Below, piece by piece: positions 14,337 through 30,260 of a stretch of 48,522 bases of DNA. Below the pieces are notes generated by a model that saw only the letters and a program-made list of their open reading frames with translations, had not been told where the DNA came from and did not search any database. The position numbers and the translations under genes were made by a program. The DNA is taken from the NCBI GenBank assembly GCA_902627335.1, contig CACOIV010000011.1, forward strand, positions 1 through 48,522, written 5' to 3'. This DNA is from an uncultured Prochlorococcus sp. Lineage in GTDB: Bacteria; Cyanobacteriota; Cyanobacteriia; PCC-6307; Cyanobiaceae. Positions within the stretch are counted from its first letter, which is position 1, and each line of letters opens with the position of its first letter.

Positions 14337-14425
14337 TGTTTTTTGAGATTTGAAGTATAGAAATCGTTACTCAAAACTCCTTTTCCTGCAGAGGTTTATA
14401 GAGAAATATGTTTCAAAATTCAAAA

Positions 14426-14496
14426 AGGCGGCACCCAGATTCGAACTGGGGATAAAGGATTTGCAATCCTCTGCCTTACCACTTGGCCATGCCGCC
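14426..14496 (-). tRNA. tRNA-Cys (anticodon GCA)
   Basis: On the minus strand the sequence folds into a full cloverleaf: acceptor stem GGCGGCA/TGCCGCC, discriminator U73 as expected for tRNA-Cys, D-loop GGCCAAGTGGTAAGGC, anticodon stem GAGGA/TCCTT around loop TTGCAAA (anticodon GCA), and T-arm GGTTCGAAT-like TTCGAATC. CCA is not encoded. Confidence 0.96.
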
Positions 14497-14544
14497 GCGC
14501 AAAATTCAAAATACTCACTAAAACATTTTAACAGTAGACCGTCT

Positions 14545-15771
14545 ATTTATTTACTAATTATATGTAATGGACATGGAGAGGATTTAATCGCTTTAGAAAT
14601 TATTAAAAAATTATTATCTTTAAAGCGAATTAAAAAAATTGAAGTTTTGCCTTTGGTAGGAAATGGTTATATTTTTGACTCTATTGCTTCCGATGCATTT
14701 AGTAAAATTGGAACTCAAATATATTTACCAAGCGGAGGATTTAGTAACCAAAGCTTAAAAGGTTTATTTAGGGATTTAAGAGTTGGATTATTAGAAAATC
14801 TTTTCAGTAATTGGTTATTAGTTAAAAAAAAACATAAGGAAAATTATAAGATTATTGCTATTGGTGATTTATTACCACTTTATTTTGCTTGGAGTTCAAA
14901 ATGTATATTTGGATTTATAGGAACTCCAAAAAGTGACTATACCTGGAGTAGTGGACCAGGAAAAGCTATATCTGATTTTTATCATAAGTTAAAAGGCTCA
15001 GAGTGGGATCCATGGGAATTGTTTTTAATGCGTAGTCATAAATGTAAATTCGTAATTATGAGAGATGAACTAACTGCGAATAATTTAAATTTAAAAAATA
15101 TTAATGCTAAATATTTTGGTAATCCTATGATGGACTTTATAAAAGAAAAAAAATTAGAGCATAAAAATATTAAATCATTTCAGAAATTGATAATGTTAAT
15201 AGGAAGTAGGTCCCCTGAAGCGTTTGATAATCTTGATATATTTTTATCATCTTTATCTACAGTAGATTTGCCTTTAAAAACTTTAATTTTTGTCCCATTA
15301 AGTTCCAATATAGATGTAAATATTGTTGAAGATTATTTCTTAAAATATAAATTCTCAAAAGAAATTAATAAAGAATATTATCTTGGTGAGGACTCTATCT
15401 GGATGAAAAATAATATTATTTTTTTAATTGGTAAAAATACTTTTGATGATTGGGCTAATTTATCTCAGGTCGGCTTAGCAAATGCTGGCACAGCCACTGA
15501 ACAATTAGCAGGTTTAGGAGTGCCATCATTATCGCTACCAGGAAGAGGTCCTCAGTTCACTAAGAAATTTGCCAATAGACAACAAAGATTATTAGGTGGA
15601 AGCGTTAGAGTTTGTTCAGATAAACAAACTCTAATGGAAAAATTAATTTATCTTTTATTAGATGAGAAGATGAGACAAAAGCAAGCCATTATGGGTTTAG
15701 AAAGAATGGGTCCAAAAGGCGCAAGTAAAAGGATAGTCGAGTATATAAATTTTAATTTTTTGTCTCAATAA
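14545..15771 (+). CDS. Lipid-A-disaccharide synthase-related protein, probable AUU start
   Basis: A ~408-residue protein of the LpxB-related family, with GT-B-like architecture. The N-terminus should begin at YLLIICNGHGEDLIALEII, where HGED is the family's first loop; GFIGTPKSDY and, near the C-terminus, GLANAGTATEQLAGLGVPSLSLPGRGPQFT form the nucleotide-sugar side. The frame stays open upstream to a TTG at 14350, but that extension reads through the antisense strand of tRNA-Cys, so it cannot be real. Between the tRNA and the first conserved residues there is no ATG, GTG or TTG in frame; ATT at 14545 fits the expected N-terminus. Actual substrate is unknown; it should not be read as proof of lipid A synthesis. 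Confidence 0.8.
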   Translation: MYLLIICNGHGEDLIALEIIKKLLSLKRIKKIEVLPLVGNGYIFDSIASDAFSKIGTQIYLPSGGFSNQSLKGLFRDLRVGLLENLFSNWLLVKKKHKENYKIIAIGDLLPLYFAWSSKCIFGFIGTPKSDYTWSSGPGKAISDFYHKLKGSEWDPWELFLMRSHKCKFVIMRDELTANNLNLKNINAKYFGNPMMDFIKEKKLEHKNIKSFQKLIMLIGSRSPEAFDNLDIFLSSLSTVDLPLKTLIFVPLSSNIDVNIVEDYFLKYKFSKEINKEYYLGEDSIWMKNNIIFLIGKNTFDDWANLSQVGLANAGTATEQLAGLGVPSLSLPGRGPQFTKKFANRQQRLLGGSVRVCSDKQTLMEKLIYLLLDEKMRQKQAIMGLERMGPKGASKRIVEYINFNFLSQ

Positions 15772-29006: not shown

Positions 29007-29014
29007 GGATTTAA

Positions 29015-29088
29015 CGAGCATGGAGGGACTTGAACCCCCGACTCTCAGAACCGGAATCTGATGCTCTATCCAACTGAGCTACATGCCC
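29015..29088 (-). tRNA. tRNA-Arg (anticodon CCG)
   Basis: The minus strand folds into a cloverleaf with acceptor GGGCATG/CATGCTC (one G-U pair), D-loop AGCTCAGTTGGATAGAGC, anticodon stem TCAGA/TCTGA around TTCCGGT (anticodon CCG), and T-arm GGGTTCAAGTCCC. The discriminator is G; CCA is not encoded. Confidence 0.95.
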
Positions 29089-29159
29089 AAAAAAATTTTT
29101 CAATTTTATTCAAGGATAATCTAAAACCTCATAAAGTAGCTAACTTGATTATGTAATAC

Positions 29160-30260
29160 ATTAAAAAAATTTTTTTAAATCAACTTAAAATTAAAAATTT
29201 TCGAAATCATTTAACTTTTGATCTGAATGTTCAAAAAAGTAGAATTATAGTACTTGGTTGCAATGGTATTGGGAAAACTAATTTACTTGAAGCAATTGAA
29301 TTTTTGAGCCAGTTAAAATCAAGTAGAGCTTTAAATGATAAAGATTTAATTAATAATGAGGCTGAATCAGCAATTGTTTCAGCTCAAGTTAATTTGAGTG
29401 AAGAGTTGAAGATTATCTTATTAAAAAAAGGATCAAAAAAAATTTATGTGAATGATAACTTACTAAAGAAACAATGTGACATAAGAAACTATATTAGAAC
29501 CGTATGTTTTAGTGCTAGTGATATAAATATTGTGAGAGGGGAGCCAAGTCTTAGAAGAATTTGGCTGGATAAGGTGGTGTCTCAACTTGAACCTGTATAT
29601 GTTGAATTGATATCAAGATTTAATAAATTATTGAAGCAAAGAAGTCATTTTTGGCGCTCTGGGATTTACAAAAAATATCAAGCAGATTCTCTACTTGATA
29701 GCTTTGATGAACAAATGTCAATTATTGGAACAAGAATCTTCAGAAGGAGAAAGAGGGCATTAGCCAGATTAAAACCCTTTGTTGAATATAGGCATAATTA
29801 TTTAAGTAAATCTAAAGAAAAGATAGGATTTAATTATCTAGGTTTATTTCAAAATTTTTCTGATGAACAGTCTGAGGAACAACTAATCATAGATGAATTT
29901 TGTAGAAAGTTAAGAGAGCAAAGAAAACTAGAGGAAATTACTGGAAAGTGCGTAATAGGACCGCATAGGGATGATATTGAATTTTTAATAAATGATTTCT
30001 CTGTAAGAAAATATGCTTCTTCAGGACAACAAAGAACTATTACATTAGCCTTGAAGATGGCTGAAATGGATTTACTTCGAAAGTCATTATCTATTAAACC
30101 TATTTTAATCTTAGATGATGTTCTGGCTGAGCTGGATGTGGTTCGACAAAATTTATTACTTGATTCAGTGGGTAACGAAAGTCAATGCTTTATTAGTGCA
30201 ACGCATCTTGATAAATTTAATGATCGTTATTTGGATAATTCGCAGATAATTTATTTATAA
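29160..30260 (+). CDS. recF: DNA repair/recombination ATPase RecF, probable AUU start
   Basis: RecF loads RecA at gapped DNA. The conserved N-terminus is fully present in frame upstream of TTG 29304: QLKIKNFRNH and the Walker A GCNGIGKT (residues 33-40), then SGQQRTITLALKMAE (ABC signature) and ILDDVLAELD (Walker B). Starting at ATT 29160 gives MKKIFLNQL and 366 residues, normal for RecF. A stop (29154) lies two codons earlier and no ATG, GTG or TTG lies between it and the FRN motif, so the start must be ATT (29160 or 29169). The ATG at 29151 is followed directly by TAA. Convergent to none; tRNA-Arg diverges upstream. Confidence 0.9.
   Translation: MKKIFLNQLKIKNFRNHLTFDLNVQKSRIIVLGCNGIGKTNLLEAIEFLSQLKSSRALNDKDLINNEAESAIVSAQVNLSEELKIILLKKGSKKIYVNDNLLKKQCDIRNYIRTVCFSASDINIVRGEPSLRRIWLDKVVSQLEPVYVELISRFNKLLKQRSHFWRSGIYKKYQADSLLDSFDEQMSIIGTRIFRRRKRALARLKPFVEYRHNYLSKSKEKIGFNYLGLFQNFSDEQSEEQLIIDEFCRKLREQRKLEEITGKCVIGPHRDDIEFLINDFSVRKYASSGQQRTITLALKMAEMDLLRKSLSIKPILILDDVLAELDVVRQNLLLDSVGNESQCFISATHLDKFNDRYLDNSQIIYL

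Follow-up and report, generated by a model that had tools for sequence, protein, structure and literature searches.

A near-cognate AUU codon very probably starts recF in Prochlorococcus and across the family Cyanobiaceae

The recF gene of the window (the whole stretch of 48,522 nucleotides analysed here, which is one entire contig, G000:C11, of a draft Prochlorococcus genome in 68 contigs) raises the question of where RecF begins when its frame offers no ordinary start codon ahead of the Walker A motif. Read in frame from 29145, the codons are TTG-ATT-ATG-TAA(29154)-TAC-ATT(29160)-AAA-AAA-ATT(29169)-TTT-TTA-AAT; read upstream from the conserved RecF N-terminus IFLNQLKIKNFRNH, they are ATT 29169, AAA, AAA, ATT 29160, TAC and TAA 29154. 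An earlier note on this DNA had stated that the TAA at 29154 closes the frame, that the next ordinary start is the TTG at 29304 and that a start there would delete the Walker A motif, and all of this was borne out: no ATG, GTG or TTG lies between TAA 29154 and the motif, and TTG 29304, which is 46 codons into recF, comes after it. The reading frame from 29169 to 30260 has no internal stop, and its translation contains the Walker A motif, the signature SGQQRT and the Walker B motif ILDDVLAELD, the last two in a C-terminal part of SMC/RecF type. The TIGR00611 (RecF) profile was matched by residues 3-345 over positions 1-339 of 339, well above its cut-off (282 bits vs. 172). The nearest named records were those of Prochlorococcus W8 and bv. 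HNLC2, both with 91% identity in RecF. The comparisons given below indicate that recF of the Cyanobiaceae, including this HNLC-kind Prochlorococcus, very probably starts at a near-cognate AUU (29169), with AUC in its place in some relatives. The features discussed are listed in Table 1.

Table 1. Positions of the features discussed, numbered along the window.
Feature	Positions	Strand	Remarks
TIGR03492 gene	14350-15771	+	429 bits; gene from about 14533 onward
tRNA-Cys	14426-14496	-	antisense to the TIGR03492 frame
tRNA-Arg (CCG), divergent	29014-29089	-	neighbour conserved in the family
Probable recF -10 box, TAACTT	29141-29146	+	-28 from the start codon; inferred from equivalent boxes in relatives
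In-frame TAA	29154-29156	+	bars any start farther upstream; same in L031 and L110
ATT chosen as start by the earlier note	29160-29162	+	unconserved; stop codon in 15 of 153 relatives
recF coding sequence	29169-30260	+	363 aa and stop; TIGR00611 282 bits, PF02463 69 bits
ATT (AUU) start codon of recF, conserved initiation codon (very probable)	29169-29171	+	aligns with ATG/GTG starts in other cyanobacteria
Walker A motif GCNGIGKT	29256-29279	+	from the translation
TTG, first ordinary in-frame start past the TAA	29304-29306	+	downstream of Walker A

The start region was compared in 153 distinct recF loci of the family, from many genera (Prochlorococcus, marine Synechococcus and allies), and in 23 loci of other cyanobacterial families as outgroup; the loci share descent, and the tallies are of related sequences, not of independent events. 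In the family, the codon aligned to ATT 29169 was ATT in 136 loci, ATC in 14 and ATG in 3, a near-cognate ATT or ATC being conserved in 150 of 153, and ATA, GTG, TTG and CTG were found at this codon in none of the 153. The outgroup had ATG (15 loci) or GTG (8 loci) at the same codon, for example ATG TTC CTC AAA ACG and GTG TAC CTG CGT TCT. The earlier note had held that relatives starting RecF with ATG would speak against its reading; the 3 family loci with ATG have it at exactly the codon of 29169, in separate places on the RecF tree, which has 57 rows and requires 11 or more changes of start-codon label, and the other 150 keep ATT or ATC. The AUU start proposed in that note was strongly supported by this family-wide comparison; it is not specific to the lineage, as it spans the whole family Cyanobiaceae.

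The exact codon named in the earlier note, ATT 29160 (366 residues), was off by three codons. An initiation at 29160 or at some other non-standard codon upstream (ACG, CTG), which would make ATT 29169 an ordinary second or fourth codon, is very unlikely. A start at the in-frame ATT 29160 would yield MKKIFLNQL, and a number of near-cognate codons appear upstream in individual genomes, but at the position of 29160 the 153 relatives had, among other codons, ACA (37), ATA (23), ATT (21) or a stop codon (15). None of the upstream codons is conserved, whereas the AT of the 29169 codon was invariant in all 170 loci. Moreover, 25 distinct loci carried an in-frame stop at most six codons upstream, in contexts such as 'taa aga aac ATT', 'tga ccc ATT' and 'tga acg ATT', which leave hardly any codons upstream, so that no other codon can start RecF in such loci. 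In 118 of 152 relatives, the stretch from the upstream stop to this codon contained no ordinary start.

The choice among isoleucine codons also set this position apart. In the AT-rich recF genes, the 3634 isoleucines of the body were encoded by ATT (1712), ATA (1590) and ATC (332), and the start by ATT (123), ATC (5) and never ATA; in the GC-rich genes, ATC was used for 44 of 56 isoleucines in the body and ATT for 10, and the start was ATT in 13 and ATC in 9. By these counts the recF start codon is restricted to AUY, a restriction that does not apply to ordinary isoleucine codons elsewhere in these genes. Mean entropies at the first, second and third codon positions were 1.60, 1.38 and 1.50 in the 30 bases upstream and 0.79, 0.55 and 1.54 in the 30 bases downstream; conservation by codon position, with the variable third position that marks coding sequence, begins exactly at the 29169 codon.

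The same data bear on the reading of the gene as a relic, in which an internal ordinary start (TTG 29304, the first after the stop in the frame of the window) would yield a shortened protein or recF would be a pseudogene. This is highly improbable, since that start loses Walker A, the RecF profile was matched over its full length, the N-terminal codons have a strong third-position bias throughout the family, and the first ordinary start lay behind the beginning of Walker A in 88 of 153 loci. Sequencing or assembly error, which the draft state of the genome in 68 contigs might suggest, is hardly credible: W8 (L031) and bv. HNLC2 (L110), which are separate assemblies, both read ATG TAA TAC ATT AAA AAA/AAC ATT, so this is not an error of the assembly of the window, and the same codon was found in more than 130 distinct loci, closed genomes included. 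The claim that random error is not involved therefore held, and a start shared across the family is neither an assembly error nor the quirk of a single strain.

A further alternative is that recF of most HL Prochlorococcus begins at an out-of-frame ATG and that a -1 frameshift or slippage of the transcript at an A8/T7 run before IFLN then leads into the recF frame. The arrangement ATGAATGCACAAAAAAAATTTTTTT of many HL genomes, in which a single slip would link the ATG to recF, fits this, as does the loss of one A in L017, L034, L038 and L101, which brings the ATG into frame. It is nevertheless very unlikely, given that the window offers only ATG-TAA, and hence no slippage route, that no ATG is nearby in L005, L018, L020 and L104, that the A run is interrupted in L012, L056 and L095, and that loci from outside the HL genus lack the run altogether; as a general mechanism it is refuted by these loci. 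A conserved upstream ATG together with a slippery run, as expected of a programmed frameshift, is missing from the recF sequences compared. In the four loci with one A fewer the in-frame ATG stands four codons upstream (ATG CAC AAA AAA ATT), and single lineages may in this way have escaped the AUU start.

Upstream of the AUU codon, a box TACCTT or TAGCTT (TANNNT) began at -28 or -29 in 51 of 59 family loci outside the HL genus. The corresponding probable -10 box of the window, at -28, would place the transcript start near 29153 and give a leader of about 16 bases without a Shine-Dalgarno sequence, which would begin about at the in-frame TAA and past the ATG at 29151. A Shine-Dalgarno core (GGAG, GAGG or AGGA between -20 and -4) was present in only 1 of the 59 non-HL loci and in 22 of 111 HL loci, where the example read is probably too distant. 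A strong upstream Shine-Dalgarno sequence was not seen, and from the leaders recF is not a Shine-Dalgarno-directed near-cognate start of the kind described in Staphylococcus aureus. The earlier note had also pointed to a divergent tRNA gene beside recF; this is a tRNA-Arg(CCG), which accompanies recF in every HL locus examined and in 13 of the 14 other loci of the family, and was absent in the three outgroup loci examined. It is simply a conserved neighbour, in an arrangement of genes that arrived with the family. Conservation of the ATT as part of the promoter of this tRNA was considered and rejected for recF, because the start codon is 80 bases from the 5' end of the tRNA and the variability of the third position (ATT/ATC/ATG) follows the codon.

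recF is listed among the core repair genes shared by all cyanobacteria, small Prochlorococcus genomes not excepted (PMC5101192), and in WH7803 recF and recR were reportedly mostly up-regulated on a low-light UV shift (PMC7393227). The literature searched, to which most subscription journals did not belong, contained no mention of the recF start codon. Near-cognate starts are on record for other genes; AUU and AUC are weak start codons, and the textbook examples are pcnB and infC of Escherichia coli (PMC1780047). In Escherichia coli, infC (IF3) has an AUU start and is autoregulated (cited in PMC1780047), and the AUU start of pcnB limits its expression (Binns and Masters 2002, cited in PMC13009471 and PMC1780047). 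In S. aureus, infC (AUA), cvfC1 (AUU) and ccpN (AUA) yield less than with AUG, and the cvfC1 start was shown to be conserved among Staphylococci (PMC13009471). The S. aureus starts have an extended Shine-Dalgarno sequence predicted to direct initiation, and no core of this kind was present in 58 of the 59 non-HL recF loci. E. coli infC resembles recF as a chromosomal gene with a conserved near-cognate AUU start, but the Prochlorococcus infC starts with ATG, and recF is a repair gene with an apparently short leader and no Shine-Dalgarno sequence. Closest in the purpose proposed here is pcnB, which has a single AUU start and a scarce product, as is proposed for RecF; it is, however, another gene in another phylum, and in recF AUC alternates with AUU. 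Other AUU starts have been deduced in single genomes since no ordinary start restores the full protein, in contrast to the whole family and the codon-level tests available for recF.

The initiator tRNA-fMet would pair with the AUU despite the mismatch at the third position, and this mismatch would make initiation at recF weak and subject to the check by IF3. Weak initiation may hold RecF at a low level, in the way that the AUU of E. coli pcnB limits poly(A) polymerase, and most lineages could have failed to regain AUG, one substitution away, because scarcity is selected. By this analogy, the likeliest purpose of the start is a low synthesis of RecF, and the retention of AUU across the family with AUG a single substitution off would also point to selection. 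Weakness alone does not account for the absence of ATA, itself a weak start, at this codon. A peculiarity of IF3, which the earlier note had suggested comparing, was discarded as the cause: infC starts with an ordinary ATG in Prochlorococcus, so that autoregulation of IF3 through AUU is absent, and IF3, where examined, has the same residues as in other cyanobacteria.

This family contains the most abundant photosynthetic cells, and recF would rank among the broadest near-cognate starts known outside infC. Gene finders limited to ATG, GTG and TTG would shorten RecF of picocyanobacteria past its ATP-binding motif or wrongly extend it. The case offers a test of whether selection favours weak initiation as a way of limiting the amount of a recombination mediator, and of how messages with short leaders and without Shine-Dalgarno sequences accept AUU.

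A second gene of the window, the TIGR03492 gene, had been put beside recF in the earlier note as a like case next to a divergent tRNA. The recF half of this pair stood; the TIGR03492 gene is the weaker and a confounded case. Throughout the family its frame runs without a stop across the antisense tRNA-Cys, and 8 of 30 family loci, that of the window among them, have no ordinary start between the tRNA-Cys and the NGHGED motif. A conserved CGTATCAG gives an AUC candidate in 24. On the opposite strand, the conserved GATCGTATCAG is the extended -10 sequence (TGATACGAT) of the tRNA-Cys, and this promoter confounds the reading of a near-cognate start in the TIGR03492 gene.

The search for conserved N-termini upstream of ordinary starts that the earlier note had recommended was carried out, gene by gene, on two 400-kb stretches from each of two HL relatives (708 pairs with at least 80 aligned residues), a survey that detects only genes without a chance ordinary start nearby. 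Four genes had, in one or both genomes, a conserved N-terminus that begins far ahead of the first ordinary start: recF and three more AUH candidates, namely crtR, which we take from its sequence motifs, and not from a family search, to encode beta-carotene hydroxylase, a presumed 3-methyladenine DNA glycosylase gene and a presumed cobS, the latter two also named by their motifs. The start position of crtR was AUU in 21 and AUC in 1 of 22 HL relatives, with no ATG, GTG or TTG start in HL Prochlorococcus, an upstream stop only two or three codons off in several strains, and ATG in other genera (L387-L407, L357). The glycosylase gene (L416-L440) had ATA in 22 of 23 loci; the stop of the frame lay two codons earlier in 15, and the strains carrying that stop had no ordinary start before the conserved body. 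Conserved ATC/ATA candidates (CTC ATC AAA AAA) were found in cobS (L446-L469), which is without an ordinary start in several HL strains; in others the 14th codon of the open frame is TTG. Near-cognate starts are therefore rare yet not confined to recF, and the suggestion that AUU is tolerated in this lineage gains some support from crtR (AUU/AUC) and the glycosylase gene (AUA). It is possible, though on balance doubtful, that near-cognate AUH starts are a regular, selected device in recF, crtR, the glycosylase gene, cobS and possibly the TIGR03492 gene, on leaders that are short or lack Shine-Dalgarno sequences, where the start codon would set a low dose and perhaps make it respond to IF3 or to the state of growth.

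Two draft genomes carried stops within crtR (L408 and a hit in G112; two TAA and one TAG), for which assembly error and decay are both possible. The crtR of the window's own genome (L358) apparently has ATA at the start position.
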